A DNA stretch of 64,000 nt, taken from NCBI GenBank assembly GCA_004123355.1, contig SCHM01000003.1, positions 3,925,058 to 3,989,057 on the forward strand, given 5' to 3'. The stretch's first letter is position 1. Every line of letters starts with the position of its first letter. Both the position numbers and the translations under genes were made by a program. Shown here in pieces: positions 160 through 60,386 of this stretch. The notes under the pieces were generated by a model. That model did not search any database. It had not been told where the DNA came from and saw only the letters and a list, made by a program, of their open reading frames with translations. This DNA comes from Amphirosellinia nigrospora. Lineage: Eukaryota; Ascomycota; Sordariomycetes; Xylariales; Xylariaceae.

Positions 160-590
160 TAACTATTAGTATAAAATTTTAACGATTAGTTTAGTTTAGT
201 TTAGTATAAAATTTTAATGATTAGTTTAGTTTAGTTTAGTATACTAATTAGTATACTAATTAGTATAATAAAAAAAATAAAAAAAATTCACCTATAAAAT
301 ATTTCTAAAAAAAAAAAGATCACGTGACCGTATAGCTTAATATAGTTAGCGGGTTAAGTCACGTGACCGTACACCTTAATATAGTTAGCGTAAAATTTTT
401 TTTTTGCTAAATTTTATTTTTTAAAAATATTTTAAACTAATTAGTATATTAATTAGTATACTAATTAGTTTAGTATTAGTTTAGTTTAGTTCAAAAATTT
501 TATACTAATTAGTATTAGTTCAAATATTTTCATACTAAACTAATTAGTATTAGTATGGGCTTATACTAAACTAAACTAACTAATTACCAA
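160..590. mobile_element. AT-rich MITE-like element with inverted-repeat arms
   Basis: The left arm has repeated TTAGTTTAGTTTAGTATA and TATACTAATTAG motifs. The right arm carries the same motifs in inverse orientation and ends with TATACTAAACTAAACTAA. Between the arms lie two direct copies of a 32-bp unit (320-351 and 359-390, 30/32 identical), each containing the palindrome TCACGTGA. There is no coding capacity. Size (~430 bp), AT content and mirrored ends suggest a non-autonomous DNA transposon. Exact ends and a target-site duplication could not be fixed, so the class is inference. Confidence 0.5.
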
Positions 591-18205: not shown

Positions 18206-18530
18206 TGTCACACGGACCAGCCACACAGACTCCTGGAAGGTCCCGGAAGGTCCTGGAAGACCGGCACCGCTCCGAAGCATTATCGTGGGCTGAGACATAA
18301 TATATTAGCATATTCGTATTGGTTAGAATAGCCTCAACCCCTCTCGAGGAGTCAGGCTTTCGGAGGTCTGCGAGGAGGCAAAGTCCTAGGAATTCGTCTA
18401 TAAATTGAGGGCATGGGCGAGGTTATATTGAAGTCAGAAATAGGAAATCAGAGCCCCTAGAGACCCCAAAGAGATTATTAGCTGAATTGAACTCTAAATT
18501 CCAAGCCCCTGAGCACAGGCCCTTGTCACA
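18206..18530 (+). mobile_element. Solo LTR, copy 1, with 5-bp target duplication
   Basis: A 325-bp element starting TGTCACACGG and ending CTTGTCACA, flanked on both sides by TTCAC (18201-18205 and 18531-18535), the 5-bp duplication expected of LTR-retrotransposon integration. It contains the promoter-like sequence TATAAATTGAGGGCA. A related copy in the same orientation lies at 41203-41459. No gag-pol coding sequence is adjacent, so this is a solo LTR left by recombination. Confidence 0.72.
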
Positions 18531-22654: not shown

Positions 22655-24391
22655 ATGGCGACAAATGACGGCCAAAGCAACGGACGACCTGCCAGCTCAT
22701 CGCCAGGAGTGAACATAAGTGAACCCCAGCAGCTTTTCATCGACGGTGCCTATACCCCGAGCTCGGATGGCGAGACATTCCCTGTATATAACCCGATGAC
22801 GGGCGCGAAGCTTTACGACTGTTCATCTGCGACTACAGATGACTATGAGCGCGCAATCCAGTCAGCTTCAGTTGCATTCAAGACATGGTCGCGACTCGGC
22901 CCGTCTGCTAAGCGCATGATTTTCTTGCGCGCGGCAGACATTCTCGAGAGGTCCATGGAGACCGAAGCCCCCGAGCTCATGTCTACAGAGGTTTCGGGAC
23001 AAGGCATTGGACGAAAGTCAACGCAATTTCAGGGGTGGGTAATCTGCGCGAGGCAGCGAGCCTAGTATCGCAGATCAAGGGAGAAATCATGCCAGCAGAT
23101 GCACCAGGAAATACGGTATTGGTAGAACGACAGCCGCTCGGTGTCGTGTTGGCAATCAGCCCATGGAACGCTCCGGTCAGTTGTAACTCTATGCTGTCTT
23201 ACAAACATAGACGCAGTGCTAACCTCCTGATCAGGCAAGCCTAACGGTTCGTGCCATCGCCACACCATTGATATGCGGAAACACTGTTATCCTGAAGCCA
23301 TCCGAGTATTCGCCTAAGAACCAGCATCTAGTCGTTCGCGCAATGATGGAGGCAGGCCTGCCAAAGGGCTGTCTGCACTTCCTTCCCGTCTCCGCAGAAC
23401 GCACGCCTGCGGTAACCGAGTTCGCTGTGAAACACAAGCTTGTCCGCCATATCAATTTCACGGGAAGCGATCGTGTAGGACGTATCATCGCAGGCCACGC
23501 AGCGACATGTCTTAAACGGTGCGTGCTTGAGCTAGGAGGCAAAGCGCCCGTCAGTAAGCAATTCTCTGAGCCATTTTCTTCTGTTTTGGCAAATTTTAGA
23601 GCACCAAGTTTCCGCTTGGGGATAAGACAGCGTCTAGAATCTTCTAGACTTACACAAATCAGTTCTTACTGACAGTAACTGATTCTGAGTATTGTAGTCA
23701 TTCTCGAGGACGCGAATCTAGACGACGCCGTAGAGGCAGTGGTTTTCGGGTCTCTCGCGAACGCTGGCCAGGTCTGCATGTCGACGGAGCGTGTGCTACT
23801 ACACGAGTCAATCGCGGAGTCTTTCAAGAAAGCTCTAGTAGCCAGGATGCGAAGCATCAAGGTCGGGAACCATGAGGAAGACCCGCATGTTTCGATCTCT
23901 GGCTTGTTTACAGCGGCATCGGCGAAACGTGTCCAGAAGCTTCTGAACGATGCCGTCTCTTCGGGCGCGAAGTTGCTTTACGGTGATGTATCGGCATCCG
24001 GGCCGAACTTGACCATTATGGCGCCCCATGTCGTAGACGGCGTGACGCCTACCATGGAGATCTTCCAGCGCGAGAGCTTTGGGCCCCTCGTGTGCCTGAC
24101 TCCGTTCGCTACAGACGATGAGGCGATCGCACTCGCGAATAACAGCGACTACACCCTAAGCGCATCGGTTTTCTCGAAGGATGTAATGCGGGCTCTTGAT
24201 ATCGCACGCCAAGTGCGAGCGGGTAGCTGTCATGTGAATAATCCATCTGTCTACATTGCCTCCGGGACTCCTAACGGAGGCGTTGGGGGAAGTTCAGGAT
24301 ATGGTAGATTTGGGGTATGGCAGGCGTTCTCGAGTTTACTGAGCTTAAGATCATAAGCCTGGGGAAGTCAGGGGTAAAGTATCCTATTTAG
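22655..24391 (+). CDS. NAD(P)+ aldehyde dehydrogenase, salicylaldehyde/vanillin-type
   Basis: Oxidises an aldehyde to the acid; closest in feel to fungal enzymes annotated as salicylaldehyde- or vanillin-type dehydrogenases. Visible motifs: LFIDGAYTPS start of fold, ISPWNAP, cofactor loop FTGSDRVGRI, catalytic Glu in LELGGKAP, catalytic Cys in NAGQVCMSTERV, ESFGPLV, and a C-terminal NGGVGGSSGYGRFGG. Introns are 23176-23234 and 23554-23697; the second is homologous to introns in two unrelated genes of this window. Two one-base losses (TT near 23008, GGGG near 24313) break the frame; the corrected end is FTELKIISLGKSGVKYPI, stop 24389-24391. About 490 aa, no signal peptide. Convergent with the GH5 gene. 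Confidence 0.85.
23554..23697 (+). mobile_element. Introner-like element, copy in aldehyde dehydrogenase intron 2
   Basis: This 144-bp intron (GTAAGC to TTGTAG) shares ordered blocks with the GH5 and medium-chain dehydrogenase introns: AATTCTCTGA, ATTTTCTTC, AGAGCACC, TTTCC, CTTCT, and the end GTATTGTAG. It carries a perfect hairpin palindrome GTCTAGAATCTTCTAGAC at 23632-23649, at the same relative place where the other copies have a different palindrome. It is the most diverged of the three. Confidence 0.7.
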
Positions 24392-24818: not shown

Positions 24819-26833
24819 TCAAATTGTCAGAGTATAGTTCAACGAGTTTCCTGGAACTCTCGGGAAAAAGTCGAACGTGAATGTCGTTGCCACATTCGCA
24901 GCAATAACAGCGTCGACAGTCGCCGCGGTTAGAATCAGATCGCCTCCATCCCAGTTCCACTGTCCTGAGTATGTGCCGTAAGCCGCCTGGAGAGGACCGA
25001 GATACTGAGTCCAGTCGTCGAATAGGTACACACCATCCTCGCGCAACATCTTGACTGCCGCGGGCTGGTTGACACCGGCCCAGGTAACGGGGATCCGTAA
25101 GTCAGCACCCGAGGCAGCCTTAGATGATGTAGATCCTAGCTTAGGTACGTCCCACTGCACCAAATTCACAGCTGCCGTGGCGCCGGCTGAGAAGGTAATG
25201 GTAAGGTTCACTTTGCTCCCTGGAGTTCCTGATGAAGAGAAATAAGTGGACAGGAACGACGATGGGAACGTGATGTCACCCCCGACGCAGTGTAGTCGGT
25301 CGATGGGTCAAGTGCTGTACCCTCCTCGGTCGCAATGGACTTCAAGGTGTTGCCGTTTAGAGAGACCGAGATTTTCTGATCAGTAACATCGTCTCCAACC
25401 TTGTGAAACACATACGCAGAACTTGACTGCTCGGTGGCTGATACGTCAGTGGTATAGTCTGCAAGACTGTTGCTAATCCCTTTAGCAGCATTAAGCAGGA
25501 TTTCAAGAGACTGGGGTCTCTCCACTTCTTAGTATTGCGGTCAAAGTGATCTAGGCCGTTATCCCAAACGATGACTGCCGTGTCGAGCTCCTTTGCTTTT
25601 CGAACTACGACGTCCATATACTTCCTTCTTGCCGCTGGTTCCGTGCTGAGAGGACTGGCATCAAACTCACCGAGTACAAGGGGCACATCAGTAAAGTTAG
25701 CACGAATATTTTCAAGATCGCTCTCGACTGTCGCAATATCCTGGTCAGATAGCGTAGTTTTGCCCCTATCATAATCATCAGCGGCGGCTTTCCAACGTCC
25801 ACGATGTATACTGACCATGCACTGAAAATGAAGTCGTATGGCGAGTAGTAATGATACTGCAAAGCCCAGGGTTGTCGTAACCGTAGGTGCCTCGAACCAT
25901 TCAGACGTTTTTATGCTGTCCATGCTGGGCCCCACAAGCGTAACAACCCGTTGAGTGTTGAAACCTCCCGAGTCCTTCAGAGCTTGAAGAAATATGCCAT
26001 TAAGCTTATTCAGTTCTGTTGCTTGTTCCTGGGTATCAACCGGCGGCTCGTTTATTGGCTCAAACGCTACATTGGATGACTTGCAACCCAGCTTCTCACC
26101 GATTTGGAGCCAAGTTTGATGCATCCCTTTCCTCGATTTGAGTTAGATTCGCACCTGACGTCGATACATCGGCCCACTGCCATGAGTCTATTTATTGTAA
26201 GTATTCAACAGCGCTAGTGAGATTTCTCTTTTTTCTCCTACCATGGTGTACGTTTGTTAAGACATATAACCCCGCATCAAGGGCCATGTCAACCACATCT
26301 GACACTCGTTGGAGCCAATCTGCATCTATCGCCCATCCAGGTGAAGTACCGGTGAAATGGTCGGCATATGTAACTACGTATATAGTCAGGACGTATAAGA
26401 GTTTTATTCTTGGCGATGCTCGTCATACCAGGTATTCTCACGCTATTAAAGCCTGCAGCTTTGATATCTTTGAATGTCTCGGCTTGTACGGGAGGATTAT
26501 TCCACGACCCTTCGTCAGGCGTGGCATCTAGAGTATTGCCACTACAACACCCAGAGTTAGTTTTGGCTGTTTATAGCGTGAATTGTGAGGGTTTCAGAAG
26601 CTTTGAGATATCACCATGTCCTAAAAGGAAAGGTGGTGCTCTGAAAGGTGCTAAAGTAGGAAGAAAATAATTCAGAGAATTACGCACAGGTTCCAACCCG
26701 GGTTAATGGCGGCGACGTAGTCAGAAGCTGATATTGGCTCGAAGGTGCCAGTACATTCTACCGCAAGCGCCATGCTTCGTAGCAGCCCGAAGGCCTGCGC
26801 AACAGTAAGAATGCTGACGGACTTCGACATCAT
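24819..26833 (-). CDS. GH5 endoglucanase-type glycosidase with X2 module (frameshifted)
   Basis: Secreted beta-glycanase of family 5. The N-terminus MMSKSVSILTVAQAFGLL resembles a signal peptide. Family landmarks: NPGWNLGNTLDATPDEGSW, SVRIPVTYADHF, TNVHHDSWQW, the acid/base Glu in FEPINEPP, and the nucleophile Glu in VPLVLGEFD. After the barrel comes a CBM_X2-like module (ISVSLNGNTLKSIATEEGTA ... STDYT ... VNLTITFSAGA) and a further beta-rich tail ending NSLNYTLTI. Introns: 26687-26542 (an introner-like copy), 26428-26374, 26241-26188; phases agree. At least four indels break the frame (near 26126, 25880, 25790, 25525 and around 25270), so length is approximate (~590 aa). The X2 module is more usual in bacterial cellulases. 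Confidence 0.78.
26542..26687 (-). mobile_element. Introner-like element, copy in GH5 intron 1
   Basis: A 146-bp intron (GTGCGT to TTGTAG) that splits the conserved WNLGNT motif. It aligns without gaps to the 146-bp intron of the medium-chain dehydrogenase at 39674-39819, with 121 of 146 positions equal by hand count. Shared blocks include TTTTCTTCCT, TTAGCACCTTTCAGAGCAC, AAGCTTCTGAAACCCT and CTATAAACAG, plus branch-point-like ACTAAC. Flanking exons of the two genes are unrelated. Confidence 0.88.
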
Positions 26834-39303: not shown

Positions 39304-40574
39304 ATGTCAACTAATACGCTACCACGAACGCATAAGGCACTATTCCAGGAAGTTTACGCCGAACCTCTCGTAGTCAAAACGGTGCCAACGCCCCAACCGA
39401 CCCCAGGCGCCGCCATCATTAAAGTCCTCTATGCTCCCATCATCTCTTACATGCGCGAAGTCTACAATGGCAACCGCAAGTATCCGTACCCTACGCCACT
39501 TGTCATTGGTACTAGCGTCATCGGTCGCGTTGCCGCTACAGGACCTGACGCTACTCTGTTGAAAGAAGGCGACCTGGTCTACTTTGATTGCACTATCCGC
39601 GGGCGTGACGACAGCAGCGCCATAATCCTGAGTGGTTTGTCTTTGGGGTCTGAGAAGGGTGGCAAGGTCCTGAGTGCGTAGTTTCCGGCATTCTTTTCTT
39701 CCTGCGTTAGCACCTTTCAGAGCACGATGTTTCCTTTCGAGACGTGATGATATTTCGAAGCTTCTGAAACCCTTACAATTCGCACTATAAACAGCAAAAA
39801 CTAACTCAGAGCGTTGTAGTGGAAGGCGAGTGGCGCGACTCCACCTATTCTGAGTTCGCCAAAGTCCCTTTGGAGAACCTGTTCCGACTAGATGAGAAGA
39901 GACTCTGCGGTTCGTCCGCGGATGGCGGATTGGGCTATGCGCCAGAGCAATTGTGTTGGATTCTGCAGGCTATGGTGCCGTATGGCGGGCTAAGAAGCAT
40001 TGGATTGCAGCCAGGAGAGACGATAGTCATCGCTCCGGCTACTGGAGCCTTTGGTTCTGCCGCCGTAGTGGTTGCTCTCGGCATGGGTGCTAGAGTTATT
40101 GCAATGGGTCGCAATTCCGAGGAACTGGCAAGGATAAAGGCGCTCGGTCCGAGGGTCGAGACAGTTCGAATCACTGGTGACGGCGAGATGGAGTTGGCGA
40201 GCCTAAAGAAGTTCGGAAGGATCGATGCATTTTTCGATATATCTCCCCCGCAGGCACAAAACTCGACGCATTTCAAGGCCGCAATCTTGAGCCTGAGACA
40301 TGCAGGACGTATTTGTCTGATGGGGGGGCTTAAAGATGACTTGCCTATCCCCCATCTCTTCATCATGAGACATGATATTACTTTAAAGGGAAAATGGATG
40401 TACTCGTCGGAAGACGTACACGCCTTCCTAGGTTTGATGACATCTGGTGTGCTGGATGTCCGTAAAATTGTCCAGATCGTGGGTACTTTCAAATTGGAGG
40501 AGTGGAAGAAAGCTCTCGATGTAGCTGCAGAGGATGGAGGAAAGTTAGGACAGCTGGTTTTATTCACTCCATAG
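39304..40574 (+). CDS. Zinc-independent medium-chain dehydrogenase/reductase (intact)
   Basis: NADPH-dependent medium-chain reductase (ADH_N plus Rossmann domain), 374 aa. Exon 1 is 39304-39673 and exon 2 is 39820-40574. The only intron (39674-39819) is an introner-like copy; using its ends gives KVLMEGEWRDSTYSEFAKV with no frame change, whereas the nearer AG at 39808-39809 would not. The N-domain has PLVIGTSVIGRVAATG and GDLVYFDCTIRGRDD; catalytic zinc ligands are absent. The nucleotide-binding loop is ATGAFGSAAVVVALGMGARV. C-terminus HDITLKGKWMYSSEDV. Similar fungal proteins are often found beside metabolite genes or as stand-alone detoxification enzymes. Confidence 0.88.
39674..39819 (+). 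mobile_element. Introner-like element, copy in medium-chain dehydrogenase intron
   Basis: A 146-bp intron (GTGCGT to TTGTAG), same length as and about 83% identical to GH5 intron 1 over its full length, with no gaps. A near-perfect palindrome TTTCGAAGCTTCTGAAA sits at 39753-39769. Most differences between the two copies are C/T or G/A changes. Confidence 0.88.
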
Positions 40575-43147
40575 ATCAGGCTTACTTTTAGGACCATTGA
40601 AATTAAAGACAGTAATAGATGTGCAACAAATTACGGGACATTCCTGCCAATGGAAAATATATAACTACATATCCTCTTGTTGGCGTGACGGAACTCAAAT
40701 TCTTACTTTTAGTCGCCAACGGCGCAACGACGGCTTGTGTCCAAGGGCTTTAAATAGATAGTAATCATCTATGGATCCAAAGGTGCCGTGAAGATATAAT
40801 TTCAAGCAGGAGGAATTTATGCCTTTTATAATACAATCAGCCTAGTATCTACCTTAAAGCCTCGCGGACCTCCAAACGGTTACCGATCTAACCCATCTCA
40901 GTGGTCGGTATCGGCCTTTGGCGAAGGTCTGGGACTCATGAGATTCGTACGACTTCGCCAACCTCTATTCAATCAGTAGACGAGATCCGTGTGACATATC
41001 GACCTATCGCTCGAAACATCATCCCTTTTCATCATGAACTACCAAGAAGTCTATGTTTCTGAATGGCGGTATGCAATTAGAGACTATCTAACTATCTGAT
41101 GATATGCAGTGAATTTCTCTGCCTACTTTTGTGTGCCTGTGCCTCGTGAAATTAACTATTCTCAAAACTGAAGACTTTGAGCTATGAGAGTCGTGTCGTT
41201 GGTGTCACACGGACAAGCCACACCTTCTCGCGGGCTGAGATATGAGCATAATAGCATTGGTCAAAATAGCTTTCTGTAATACAAGGCCCCTCTCCTCTCG
41301 ATAGCTTATGCTCTTGGAGGCCTACGAGGGGGAGGCTCCTAGAATTCCTCTATAAATTGAGGGCAAGGGCAAGTTTACGTTGAACTCAGAGATACCTAGG
41401 AAACCAGGGACCTTATAGACTCCAAAGATCCAAGCACTTGAGCACAAGCCTGCATCACACCGTGCGTGCATTAATCATAATTCTCTACCTACGGCCAGAA
41501 TTCCTCTCAAAAGCGATTTCCAACGTCGAGGTCTTCCAGCGTCAACTGGGTTCCAGCAGCTACCCGCATTACGTGCAGTAATACGCGCCAAACCCACGAT
41601 GATTCTTTATTGATACCATTATATGCGATAAACATAGTTAAAACAAGCCAATTACTTGATGCTAAATGTTGGATCAAGTACCGAAAATAACACACAGGAT
41701 GTACTTGGAAGCAAGTAATGCTCCTTAGCCCGTTCCCGGGAGCCAACTTTTAACGTTTACAATCAAATATACAGTCGCGGACTTTGTGTATTCTCCCAAA
41801 AATTAAACCAAGGAGTAACGCAATCCCAACTAATAGTAGCGATATATACTCACTTTACACTTTCAACTATCACATACGACCATAGGATCTGGAAAACGCG
41901 GGGTCCCGTCCGCTCCCCCATAGCTAAGCCAGATACCGCCAGATTAGTAGTTGGGTCGGTGACGACCAGCGAATCCCTGGTGTTGTATGTTTTGCAATTT
42001 TTGCCAATCACTGACTCGCCTTATCTTAGTAGATCTACTAGAGAAGGAGCATAATGTGCTTATCAGTAGAAACTGCCACTCGGATAAAATGTCAGGCATC
42101 TGCCCATATAATAAATAGGACCGTCCGCTGAATGGGGTTAAATGAAGCAACTCGATATTTCTTAAGACCCATAGTGCCTTAGATGCTGAATAGTGCCTGT
42201 CATTATAGTATTGAAAATAGTATAGGCTCTCCAAGGTAATCAATCCTCTTGTTGGTCATTATACTAATTGAATTCAACACCGCCGCATTGCTGATAAATA
42301 GCCAGCAACGCTACCAAGGCCCTTCACCTATTTAATACAAGGGAGAGCAATACTGTAATAACGTACGAGAACGTAAAGCCCCTAGGTGATAAGATCCAAC
42401 CGCGACTCAAAAGCTTCCTACGAAAAGATTACTAGCGACAAGGATCACGTTGGAGCTTTTGGTTTTGGCCACGATTCCCTCCCCTTTTCCCGTAAAAAGC
42501 GAGGAAAGAAAGAAAAAACTAAAGTCTGCTATACACAAAGAATGCTGTCCCTATAATAAGCTCACCATACGGCTCCTAGATAGCCAGTGTCTAATGCACC
42601 GGTTTCGTTCCTACACCAAGTATCACGCTTTGAGTAAAAATTTATGTTTGAGTTAAAACATGATTCGAAACGAACAATTTTTAAGACCTTAGATGGGAGT
42701 AGTGGCTATACCTGCGGGAAGACGTTACGAAGACGGCAACAAGCATGCATATAAACGACTGCGCAAGTGTCGAAAACGGACGATAGTGCTGTCGCAAAGG
42801 TTGCGATTTTTTTAGTACCCTTTCGTATTATTTCTATGTTCCAGACAGCGATTAAATGACCAATTTGGAAAACGGAAAATATTGCGCCAAAAGCGATAGA
42901 GAACCAAGCATCGACACCATGCAATGGGGTTTACTGCTACATGAAAATGTCACAAGTCTATACATATACACAATTTTCGAGTTGTTCATTCCGGTCGTTA
43001 TACCCTACCTACTGGTCGGTATTATAGTGGGTGTATAACCTCATCTGCAAATCTGCAGAGCTGTCATACTGTCCACGTCTCAATTTCTTGTTGGAGACGT
43101 CTTGTGGGAATTGGAAACTGACGGTCGACACTATTACTCCAACTGAC
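40575..43147. other. Gene-free stretch containing a second LTR copy
   Basis: About 2.6 kb with no supportable gene apart from the LTR copy at 41203-41459. AT-rich; short frames have no coding character. Confidence 0.4.
41203..41459 (+). mobile_element. LTR copy 2 (shorter, diverged)
   Basis: Begins TGTCACACGGACAAGCCACA and ends GCATCACA, with the same landmarks in the same order as 18206-18530: GGGCTGAGA, ATAGC, CCTAG/AATTC, TCTATAAATTGAGGGCA, GAGCACA. It is about 70 bp shorter, lacking the repeated TCCTGGAAGG part. No clear target-site duplication flanks it. Same orientation as copy 1. Confidence 0.65.
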
Positions 43148-46053: not shown

Positions 46054-49000
46054 CTATAACTGTCCGGAGAGCAACGCCTCGGTAGCTAAAACCTATATTA
46101 GCGATATCCTTGGGGGGAAAGGCTGTTGACTCATAACTTACCGCTGTTAATATACGCTCGTTTAGATTCAAGCGGGACGTTGAATCGCCTCTCCAATTCC
46201 TGCTTGATGCCCTTCTTGGTAACTGTCATTAGATCGGCTGTCCGCAAAATCTCCCGGATTTCGGCTAGGAGCGCATCATCGCTGGGCATTGATGCTAGAT
46301 CTACCATCTCGGTCTCGCCATGGTTACCGAAGAACTGCGAGCCCCCAAACTGGCTCATTCTATTGTCCGTGGGAGCAAAAGACATGCGGCTAAAATTGCC
46401 CGAATTCTTAACGTCGTATGGGGGAATAACTCCCACGGTCGAGCCGGCGCGAGACTGAGAATGATAGTATTCGGACACAGCAGCATTCATACCAGGCTTA
46501 GTGGCATAACTGAAGCCGCTGATCTCTGAACGAGTGTCCTCCTTCGAAGTTTGCGCATCCCATAGTTCAGCTTGATACTCCTCCCACCTCTTCCGAGGGA
46601 TCGAGGCAGGATCAAATTTGCCTTCGTCAGAAATGACAACCTTCTTGCCTTGCTCGCCAGCAACCACACGGGTGTTGCCCCAGTTGAAGTCATCCATATG
46701 CCAGAAAGCATACAGCGGCAGGCCGAAAGAGTAGACAGGGACAGCCAGGATATAAAGAAGTAGCCAACCCACCATTTCCCACCGCCTGCGCAGGAGGAAA
46801 ATGACGGCTTGCAGTCCGTAGATGGCGCCGAGCAAAATAAAGGAAGTGACCGGAACGATAGTGGCGTTGGTAGAAACAAGAACGATGAGATAAATAATGT
46901 AAGCGATAGTTACGGGCTGCACAACAGTCGATAAGAGATCGATGAATATCACGAAGCGCATACTGAAACAGCAGAAACCGCAAAGCTGTGACATCGGGAC
47001 GAGCTCCATAAGATTGTGTACCGTAGAGTTAATCCAGCGACGGCGCTGTGAAACGAACACTTGCCAGGTATCGGGAGCAATAGTCCAAGCCTTAGCCGTG
47101 AAGATGTACTTAGTCTTGTACTTCGAATGGTACTTGAGGAGAAGCGTGGTCAGGTATCGATCCTCACCAAGATGTAGTAGGTTCTTCATATGCAAAGTGT
47201 CGACACGGATCGTAGAATAATCTTCAACAATCTCGCGACTGACAAACAGTGGCTTCCCTGTCTCGGCAGCGCGAATGCGGTACATAGAGAAACAACCTGG
47301 TAAACAAGTGACACTGCCGAACAAGCTTTCGAAAGCCTTAGAGAGGTTGTGAGAGATATAGTACTCGTAAACTTGAATCCCGGTAATGAACGAGGACTTG
47401 GAATTTGTTAGGGCAGTTTCGCCACAACAGGCAATTAGGCGCGTATCGTCTAAGAACGCAGAAACCATGCGAGTAGCTGAATCGGGAGCGACAACGGTAT
47501 CAGCGTCGATTTGGAGCATGTACTCATAAAATGTCGGGTTAACTCCAATAACATTGCGGATTTGATGGTACATCTCCAGCTCCAGCGGGCTCATGGGCAG
47601 ATTGTAGTGGACACGGTTGAGGAAACGCATTATAACCATTTGTGAATCTCGTTTGCCACGGTTGCCAGGGCGAGAAACTTCTGAGGGCTTACCAACCTTG
47701 ACAACGACCATGAAGGGAACGATATGGCCTTGAACTTCGTATAAGCCAGAATATACTTTACCCATGTTGTGCTGCTTAAGACCTTCGCCAAGAGACTCAA
47801 AGCTAAGTGGCTCGGGGTCTACAGTTTCGGAGACACCAAGGATATCCAGTACAATACGGGGTGTCGGTCGGTCATTTCCTTGTCCAATAATCATTCCGTC
47901 GCAAACTATCACCAGAAGTTTGCGCTTATCATCGTATCGCATACGAGCAGCAGAATCGATAGCTCGGCGAAGCGAGTCTTCGTCTTCGGTATAAGCCGGG
48001 ATTTGGCAAATAATAAACTTGTCGATATCTTCTGGCATATTCTTCGCTGAAAACTGGAGAGCGGCAAGAAACTTGAAGCCAATAATACTGACCAGAACGA
48101 CAGAGACAGCCAAGATAAGGTATTGTGCGAACTGGCACTTCGTGGAGTTACGGGTATCAACATCACCAACATAAAAGAGATTGTCCAGGCAAAGCTGCAT
48201 GCGGGCACGCAACGCGTTGTCCATAGGGGTCCTAGTCCATAGCTCAGTCAAATCAGTACCGGCCTTATCGGTAAAGAGGGTTAGAACAGTATCGTCCATA
48301 AAATTCACGACATCGGGGTCGGTGGGTTTCTGGGCGCCATCAGGAACATCAATGTGACGGCCACCAATTATATACTGAGTGAGGTCGTAAACTCGTCCGT
48401 GAAGTATAGCAATTTGGTTTTGCTTAGTGGCGAGTGTCTTGACATATTGCGCCGTGTAGCCCACGGTACCCTTCTTCCATGAGCCTTTTAGAACTTCCAT
48501 TCTCTCATAAAACCAGTCGGGTTGGTATTTAGTAGTAGAGTAGCGGTAGTCATGGTAGTTGGCATTCGGGTCTGAAGAGCCGACGACATTGGCGGAAGCA
48601 GACACGTTGGCTAACAAGACAGAGGGGTCAACCGTGCCTGTTTTGCCCTGGCAGAGAGCTGAAACCTGGACAGGGAACAAAGCCGAAATATCTTTGCCAC
48701 CGTAATCGGTGAGCTTTTTAGTGTCAATGTAGGACGGGTAATGGTGAGGAGCATATGTTGTGACGTCGAAGACTTGACCGCGAACAGATACATAGATTTA
48801 TGCCCATCTTTGCCGTCGTACGCGGATAGCTCTGCGGCACTAAACACGTACTGTTTGGGACAGATGAGCATCGGGAAAATGATGATGAAGAAAGCAGCAA
48901 CGAGACAACTAAACCAGATGATAAGTTGATTGCCAGCTTCTCTCGCCAAGCCATCCTTACGTCTTTCCGTGGCATTCGTCCAACCCAGCGGATGAGGAAA

Positions 49001-57900: not shown

Positions 57901-60386
57901 CACCATCACTTTCAACAAGCAGGTCGCCTTCCTTGACGATACGTTGGTGGATATTATCAAAAATAATCCTGGCCAAGACGTCACGACTTCATGGAATGGT
58001 CATCTAAATGATGTTCAAGGCAACTCCACTGCCTTTGCGAAGGCTTCTAATAGCATTAACTGCATCAAGAACACGTTTTATGTCGGGAAGCCCGACTTTC
58101 GGGATTCGCCAAAGTGTCTAACCATTAACTACTTCTTGTTAGCATTCACAGTGATTATCGGCGCCATCATCCTTGTCAAGTTCGTCTCGGCCTTACAATT
58201 TGGCTCGAAGCGGCGCCCCTCTCCCCAAGATAAATTCGTCATCTGCCAGGTCCCTGCCTACACAGAAGGCGAAGATTCACTAAGAAAAGCTTTAGATTCG
58301 CTCACAGCACTTCAATATGACAACAAGAGGAAGTTGATCTGTGTCATCTGTGACGGCGTTATTGTTGGTGCTGGCAACGACCGCCCGACTCCCAAAATTG
58401 TCCTAGACATACTGGGCGTTGATCCTAAAGTTGACCCCCTGCTCTACCATTCAAATCTGTCGGTAATGGCAGTGAACAGCTCAATTACGGCAAGGTATAC
58501 TCTGGTCTCTACGAATACGAAGGCAATGTCGTCCCATATATCGTTATTGTGAAGGTCGGCAAAGAGTCGGAGCAAACGAAGACAAAGCCAGGCAACCGTG
58601 GCAAGCGTGACTCTCAAATCCTGCTGATGAGCTTCCTCAATCGTGTGCATCACCGTGCACCTATGAACCCCCTAGAGCTCGAGATATTCCATCAGATCAA
58701 CAACATCATTGGCGTAGACCCAGAGCTATACGAATACCTGTTGATGATTGATGCGGATACGTCCGTTCGAGAGGATTCCCAACCGACTTAGTTGCTGCAT
58801 GTTCCAATAATTCCAAGATTGCCGGAATTTGCGGCGAAACGGCTTTACAGAACGAAGAGCGCAGTTGGTGGAGTATGATCCAAGTTTACGAATATTACAT
58901 CTCTCATCACCTTTCCAAGGCATTTGAATCATTATTCGGAAGCGTTACATGTCTTCCTGGATGGTAGGTTTCCATTTTCACTGTGCGATATATCAGCTAA
59001 TCAGACTAGTTTCACAATGTATCGTCTCCGAACAGCTGATCGCGGCAAACCTCTAATTATCGCCGATGCCGTTATTCAGGAGTACAGCATTTGCAACGTT
59101 GATACCCTTCATAAGAAGAACCTCCTCGCACTTGGCGAGGACCGCTTCCTTACTACCATCATGACCAAGAATTTCCCCAATATGGCTTACAAGTTTATTC
59201 CAGATGCGTACTGCCAAACCGCAGCACCTGAAGAATGGAGTGTGCTGCTATCCCAACGACGGCGATGGATTAATTCGACCATTCACAACCTATTTGAGCT
59301 AATGCTTCTAAAGGATATGTGTGGATTCTGTTGTTTCTCTATGCGATTTGTAGTTTTCTTCGACCTATTCGGAACAGTCATTTTGCCCGCTACCACAGTC
59401 TATCTTGGCTACCTCATCTACCTTCTCGCAACCCACACAGGCCCGATTCCCTATATCTCATTAGCCATTTTGGCAGCTGTGTACGGCCTCCAGGCCGCTA
59501 TATTCATTCTGAAGAGACAGTGGCAGCATGTTGGTTGGCTCATTATCTACTTGCTCGCATTCCCCATCTTCTCGTTTATCCTGCCCGTCTATTCCTTCTG
59601 GAATCAAGACAATTTTACATGGGGTAATACGCGTATTGTCATCGGCGAAAAAGGAAAGAAGCAGGTTGTTGCTGTAGATGATAAGGATGGTTTTGATCCT
59701 CGGTCAATACCCCTACAGCGTTGGGATGACTATGCCGCCCTGAATAACCTCCCAGGACGACGTGGCACACAAGGCGAGAAATCCCACGAAGGATATGATG
59801 ACAATTACGAGATGGACGATATGCGATCTGTATACTCGTCGGTTCGACAACCATCTGTCTTGACCGGCCTCCAAGGTCGTGGCGGGCACATGCCCCGCAG
59901 TCACCTGCACCCTTTCAAGGCATGTCGCGCCATTCCACATATGACCCCTACGCAGATAACCCGATGCACCGCCAATCCACAACATCGTTCGGAGATCTTC
60001 AACGCGCCGGGTCTCCATATCAAGACCTACCCCATGCCGGTTACAGACAGAGCAGTATGAGCAATCTCCGAGCCGTATCAAACGCCTCACCCCAATATGA
60101 CGTGCCCAGGGCCTCGAATACACCCCTCGGTTTTGCTACCAATCGCCCCCCACTAGGCCAGGGACACCAGTCCACGACATCGTTTGATTTCCAGCGCGGC
60201 CACACTGGGCCCGACGATGGTATGATCGTCGAGGCGATTCAAGCTGTTCTCCGAGATGTTGATCTTGACACGGTGACTAAGAAACAGGTCCGTGCCCTTG
60301 TCGAGCAGAGACTACAAACAGAGCTCGTGGGGGAGAAGCGCACATTCATGGATCGCCAGATCGATAATGAGCTGGCTAACATGTAA
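54947..60386 (+). CDS. csmB: Class VII chitin synthase with degenerate myosin head (frameshifted)
   Basis: Partner of csmA in polarised cell-wall synthesis. Start [18 protein letters not shown], then [19 protein letters not shown]. The myosin-like head shows no P-loop, as expected of this class. Introns found: 55250-55301 and 58964-59009 (the second inside CLPGCFTMYRLR). Middle: [37 protein letters not shown]. Membrane entry at [17 protein letters not shown], cytochrome-b5-like [15 protein letters not shown], then GT2 motifs [51 protein letters not shown]-type C-terminus [20 protein letters not shown] ends at ELANM. About ten one-base losses (for example GGG near 56754, CCCC near 56830) interrupt the frame. 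Around 1,750 aa when bridged. Confidence 0.87.

Follow-up and report, generated by a model that had tools for sequence, protein, structure and literature searches.

A predicted family of introner-like introns with a preferred insertion site in a Xylaria-related fungus

Introduction

How could two genes with nothing in common come to carry what looks like one and the same intron? The question is raised by a stretch of 64,000 nucleotides of fungal DNA (the window), in which an intron of a GH5 gene and the single intron of a medium-chain dehydrogenase gene were described in the initial annotation as equal in length and alignable end to end without gaps, with 121 of 146 bases identical by hand count. 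Chance was held to be excluded, the hosts were considered unrelated, and introner-like elements, with a precedent in Dothideomycetes, were proposed. Introners as a kind are already known; a four-base site preference without target duplication, described below, is a clue to the origin of new fungal introns.

Results

Three related introns in the window

The predicted copies are listed in the table. Copies 1 and 2 were recovered by a repeat search of the window as an ungapped inverted pair of 149 nt (26539-26687 / 39674-39822, 83%). When copy 2 was used as query in a search of the whole genome (11 contigs, 48.1 Mb), copy 1 was found over all 146 bases at 83% identity with E 2.5e-36. As 83% of 146 is about 121, the hand count is reproduced, and the genome-wide E value bears out the exclusion of chance similarity. 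Both copies start with GTGCGTA and finish with GTTGTAG. Copy 3, which adds to the pair of the initial annotation, was found by the family profile (62.8 bits, E 4.2e-18).

Table. Copies of the introner-like family in the window
Copy	Position	Strand	Feature	Branch-point-like A	Insertion site
Copy 1	26542..26687	-	146-nt introner-like intron in GH5 gene, phase 2; predicted from sequence	26557	CT|TG; differs from YR|TS
Copy 2	39674..39819	+	146-nt introner-like intron in medium-chain dehydrogenase gene, phase 1; predicted from sequence	39804	GA|TG, within Met codon; A|T but not YR|TS
Copy 3	23554..23697	+	144-nt introner-like intron, donor GTAAGC, aldehyde dehydrogenase (ALDH) gene; predicted from sequence	23682	CA|TC; agrees with YR|TS

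When copies 1 and 2 are removed the reading frame runs on across both junctions, and the same is seen on removal of copy 3. Removal of copy 1 restores ...INPGWNLGNTLDATP..., which aligns ungapped to a glycoside hydrolase chain; the junction region reads GWNLGNTLDA, compared with the homologous chain. Copy 2 is the sole intron apparent in the dehydrogenase gene and splits a codon (A|TG) that is Met in 7/7 aligned Xylaria orthologues and in 13/16 of all aligned homologues. This conserved Met fits a T at +1 that was already in place before the insertion. The ALDH junction (ELGGKAPVI) is contiguous in a solved aldehyde dehydrogenase and in 13/13 aligned homologues. In a reductase-like gene, the junction at the RMYRTGD motif matches the homologue, the aligned part reaching just three residues to its upstream side. 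In each of these four host genes, taking out the copy yields the protein seen in homologues, without a codon too many or too few.

Of the host products, the dehydrogenase shares 82% identity with that of Xylaria acuta, and the ALDH piece 94% with those of X. flabelliformis and X. polymorpha; by taxonomy look-up, Xylaria belongs to the Xylariaceae, Sordariomycetes.

Other features of the window

A 5S rRNA gene lies at 41872-41991 on the plus strand (Rfam, 95.1 bits), and an Rfam scan of the window at gathering threshold returned nothing else. Another dispersed repeat, unrelated to the introns and apparently non-coding, occurs at 18390-18442 and 41342-41394; 41310-41430 as genome query gave at least 40 matches of 75-100% identity in both orientations, and this repeat is perhaps, as a guess, an LTR remnant. 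AT-rich direct and inverted repeats of 42-80 nt stand at the start of the window (160-491). An inverted pair of 87 nt (47293-47379 and 58877-58963, 75%) overlaps long ORFs and is probably paralogous coding sequence.

The intron belongs to a genome-wide family

The 3'-terminal 21-mer, with up to three mismatches, occurs 251 times in the genome, as against once for the reversed-pattern control; for the 5'-terminal 20-mer, 71 occurrences were found versus 3 for the control. With copy 2 as BLAST query, the best 40 of 54 candidates were scored and all 40 counted as matches, and for a second query the best 40 of 86 candidates were scored. Among the matches listed (100 of the 251 3' places, 11 of which fell outside the DNA examined), the 89 examined all overlap a profile hit (89/89) and 78 are complete elements. 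From 122 merged profile hits, 104 complete copies, GT-AG by construction, were kept; the 18 dropped had an incomplete end, an unclear GT or AG, or less than 20 bp of flank. The predicted membership of copies 1 and 2 in a family of copied introns in unrelated genes, with some 250 members or more, is confirmed. The tens to hundreds of similar introns that had been anticipated are found, and the opposite outcome, that the genome holds only these copies, fails against the 251 3' ends.

The 104 complete copies measure 93-169 nt with a modal length of 146. Their donors are GTGCGT (45), GTGAGT (18), GTACGT (11), GTAAGC (11) and others (19), and a branch-like YTRAY is present in 103, of which 96 have it at a distance of 15 nt from the end. 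Pairwise identity has a median of 69% and a maximum of 95.2%, and the median to the nearest neighbour is 84%, so the near-identical copies anticipated in the initial annotation were not encountered among these 104. The 95% maximum suggests a family whose activity is moderately old and not current. On several of the DNA stretches examined, two to four copies lie in the same direction, each such cluster probably within one gene. At C1:10817734-10819379 four same-direction family hits were seen in 1.7 kb, the last one cut at the end of the examined DNA.

Copies lie in the sense frame of diverse genes

Frame tests could be applied to 100 of the 104 copies, those with sufficient flank at both ±60 and ±90 bp. 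After removal of the copy the sense frame is open at ±60 bp in 89/100 cases, compared with 60/100 for the antisense strand and 54% for random removals; at ±90 bp the values are 73/100, 37/100 and 31%. These open frames support splicing of the predicted introns, and the excess over the control runs counter to a transposon found mostly outside introns. In the 11/100 copies that fail at ±60 bp, a minor non-coding fraction is possible.

A Pfam scan of 29 of the 36 host exons with open sense frame, plus the GH5 exon, gave a match in 19/30, with 18 different best families (the match of one exon, L024, lies below its curated cut-off). Dehydrogenase, GH5, amino-acid permease, P450, ABC transporter, peptidase S58 and sulfotransferase are among them. 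The hosts are thus largely unrelated, as had been claimed, with some related ones: two share AMP-binding, and two share PP-binding and NAD_binding_4. Several hosts resemble genes of accessory or secondary metabolism (AMP-binding/reductase, P450, sulfotransferase). One reductase-like gene (L066; C1:609009-610032; AMP-binding_C, PP-binding, NAD_binding_4), which resembles aminoadipate reductase, carries three copies of the family in roughly 1 kb; a related exon, in L048, reads through the third of these sites (ARMYKTGD).

Insertion is seamless and favours YR|TS

No target-site duplication (TSD) was detected in the 104 copies, the best z being 2.15 over 1938 offset/length combinations, and exact flank repeats of 1, 2, 3 and 4 nt number 13, 4, 2 and 0 of 104, with 0/104 for 5 and 6 nt as well. 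The base composition around the site is strongly biased relative to exon background at -2, -1, +1 and +2 (p 4e-10, 5e-10, 7e-32 and 1e-7), where the counts (n=104) are C 50 and T 34, A 55 and G 23, T 78, and G 51 and C 28, respectively. Weaker bias extends beyond these four positions, the largest being at +6 (p 8e-4) with -5 at p 9e-3.

The motif YR|TS, most commonly CA|TG, is present at 48/104 copies (56/104 do not fit it fully), against a background of 3.3% in flanking exons and 1/43 predicted ordinary introns. A|T is found at 46/104 copies versus 2/43 of these ordinary introns, a control made of predicted introns from the same DNA and not of validated ones. In the window, copy 3 alone of the three fits the motif fully. 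YR|TS occurs at 18/49 sites on contig C1 and 30/55 on the other contigs, and the larger donor subfamilies also show it; the GTAAGT subfamily (n=7) is without a clear site. By thirds of conservation, best to worst, it is found in 20/35, 16/35 and 12/34.

YR|TS insertions are distributed over the phases as exonic YR|TS sites are (p 0.28), and a separate phase preference was ruled out on this ground. Microhomology from the flanks of the donor was likewise ruled out, as the flanks of similar copies have little in common apart from the site bases.

A near-terminal inverted repeat and copied deletion derivatives

In the consensus of the GTGCGT copies, CTCGGAGTTA pairs with TGACTCCGAG near the ends to give a 10-bp near-terminal inverted repeat, the 3' arm of which overlaps the branch-point motif. 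Ten pairs were reached in 1.2% of letter shuffles, and also by 6/528 pairs of segments on a grid through the consensus. Consensus fold z values are -2.39 (GTGCGT), -0.76 (GTGAGT), -1.43 (GTAAGC) and -1.19 (all copies); five single copies gave 0.91, -1.92, -1.59, -0.51 and -0.25, the reference of the last one lacking six 5' bases. Within copies the arms pair at 5.99, compared with 5.90 when arms are re-paired between copies and 5.49 with letters shuffled. RNAalifold on 29 copies yielded a weak structure in which 3/15 pairs changed on both sides somewhere. Compensatory change maintaining a stem was not seen in the 29-copy RNAalifold run or in the arm test, the latter giving no within-copy covariation. 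The copies' own stems score 6.6 in the best-conserved third versus 5.8 and 5.6 in the others, and the stem may be ancestral.

Two 113-nt copies (L077 and L079; C1:10242810 and C6:2262308) share an identical internal deletion with its novel junction and lie in unrelated flanks. Some 33 central nucleotides are therefore dispensable for copying. A 90-nt derivative at C5:1348172-1348261, which keeps both family ends but was caught by the profile in its 3' part only, was left out of the 104 copies.

The ALDH junction in relatives

Four ALDH database proteins, P0134 (86% identity), P0149 (78%), P0145 (76%) and P0148 (71%), start at internal codons and run unbroken through the ALDH junction to the C-terminus. 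Given the presumed gene-calling method of their sources, these are probably unspliced open frames; the ALDH intron would then be absent from relatives at 71-86% identity, where it may also have been lost.

Discussion

Origin of the family

The results are best explained by one introner-like family with seamless, site-preferring insertion, a reading to which we give a probability of about 0.88. Judged by sequence, its introns multiply as discrete units in a seamless, site-preferring, genic and sense-biased manner. The alternative that these are ordinary introns of duplicated genes, or similar by chance, would draw on the few splice signals that all introns share and nothing else; the E value, the 18 best Pfam families of the hosts and the flanks of the most similar pairs, which agree little outside the site bases, refute it and leave it a negligible probability.

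As to how such an introner family could spread, the spliceosome would cut a copy out of a transcript, the intron-derived intermediate would integrate seamlessly into a different transcribed gene, by preference at the R/T step of a YR|TS site, and the inserted copy would from then on be spliced from its new host gene. We lean slightly towards an RNA intermediate, because insertion of DNA, if unbiased, ought to have produced a large number of non-coding copies. The palindrome-like site CA|TG, as expected of a DNA-recognising enzyme, speaks against a purely RNA-based route. A dedicated, sequence-selective machinery that joins the intermediate between R and T of YR|TS in transcribed genes with no duplication, acting neither by random break capture nor by classical transposition, is put forward tentatively, as an idea with somewhat less than even odds.

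The near-palindromic site, strongest within two bases on either side, the 10-bp near-terminal repeat of the consensus and the copying of a deletion derivative that retains both ends could also be attributed to a non-autonomous TSD-less DNA transposon, Spy-like or Helitron-like, which carries both splice sites by chance and whose scarcity outside coding sense strands would reflect loss of copies there or a lack of targeting. Helitron insertion falls between A and T. Cut-and-paste elements that make no TSD and favour a particular site are on record in the portion of PMC4482050 drawn on, e.g. Spy within AAATTT. Such a transposon seems somewhat unlikely to us: if unbiased it would be expected to leave many non-coding copies, yet the sense frame is open around most sites, and searches of the genome for transposase domains of the Helitron (PF14214) and PHIS (PF13359) types were empty. 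The PF13359 search matched 1/14 control genomes; the PF14214 result is weak, as 0 control genomes matched.

A different route, put forward for the stwintrons of Xylariales, is that end joining captures intron RNA, or its cDNA, seamlessly at double-strand breaks; the YR|TS bias would then stem from whatever agent makes the breaks. TSD-less seamless integration is reported for 288 stwintrons of related fungi in the available text of PMC12403724, and the introner family likewise lacks a TSD; but those stwintrons are described there as free of flank bias whereas the bias here is strong, and the sense-only copies would have to be explained by selection alone. We consider this rather unlikely. The site bias could, finally, be a splicing filter, every new intron being under selection on splicing and only insertions in YR|TS context being spliced well enough to survive. 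Of the predicted ordinary introns, 49% show G at -1 and 23% T at +1, and since they seldom have A|T, the YR|TS context does not appear to be demanded by splicing here; the motif moreover drops with decay, as expected from drift of the flanks after insertion. A filter of this sort is improbable.

If the tentative idea of a dedicated, sequence-selective machinery holds, this would be, within the literature compared, the first case of a fungal introner whose defined target motif is not of the AG/GY type. The roughly 250 detectable ends, the four-base preference, the sense and genic bias and the copied deletion derivative are testable constraints on the integration step. A search of openly accessible papers found no earlier Xylaria introner family; a prior listing elsewhere is possible.

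Comparison with known systems

The published systems are compared here on the basis of parts of the papers cited. Introners of algae and other eukaryotes (PMC9860276) resemble the present family in being sequence-similar introns across unrelated genes. Most non-ascomycete families described there have TSDs and/or terminal inverted repeats (TIRs), often with a co-opted splice site, whereas here both splice sites are carried, no TSD is seen and the near-terminal repeat is found in the consensus only. The same source mentions a family with TIRs but without TSDs (Acanthoeca) and ascomycete introner families without TIRs or TSDs; ascomycete families have been interpreted as RNA-based. The TSD and co-opted splice site that define a Huff-type DNA-transposon introner do not describe this family, no TSD having appeared in the 1938 offset tests. 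Spy elements of the PHIS superfamily (PMC4482050) are alike in their lack of TSD and their preferred insertion motif, and unlike in that they encode a transposase and move by cut-and-paste; PF13359 is unmatched in this genome.

With the introner-like elements of Dothideomycetes (Fulvia fulva, Dothistroma, Zymoseptoria; PMC4457414, PMC8469720) the family has in common hundreds of similar copies in unrelated genes, and its predicted introns are, like theirs, of the canonical spliceosomal kind. From the portions of the same two papers used, it also shares families that differ in decay, a reported symmetry or predicted structure, and seamless insertion. The proposal of the initial annotation thus stands as to the introner-like nature of the family but not as to lineage, the host's nearest proteins being those of Xylaria, in another class of fungi. 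The two sets are told apart by description, not by sequence. Dothideomycetes elements prefer AG/GY (as cited in PMC8469720), while the Xylaria-like family prefers YR|TS; an AG/GY preference is given as absent in Hypoxylon in the text of PMC8469720 consulted.

Within the same order, Xylaria species included, the sister stwintrons and cropped sister introns of Xylariales (PMC12403724, PMC8469720) come near in being seamless and without TSD, in their near-terminal inverted repeat of about 10 nt, seen here in the consensus, and in their multiplying cropped derivatives. The genus is already under study for stwintron copying (PMC12403724). Stwintrons are nested [D1,2] introns numbering at most 61 per species (PMC12403724, Table 1), whereas here single canonical introns with 251 3'-end matches are found: the 104 copies start with GTGCGT, GTGAGT, GTACGT, GTAAGC or similar, and removal of one intron restores the frame, at variance with the [D1,2] definition. 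The 288 stwintrons have no flank bias by the account of that paper, in contrast to the site preference of the introner family. The AU-rich stwintron repeat has the 5' arm GUAUAAAAAC and a 3' arm between branch point and acceptor, while the arms here differ in sequence and the 3' arm lies over the branch-point motif. In its layout, the near-terminal repeat of the family nevertheless resembles the NTIRE-10 of stwintrons as presented in PMC12403724.
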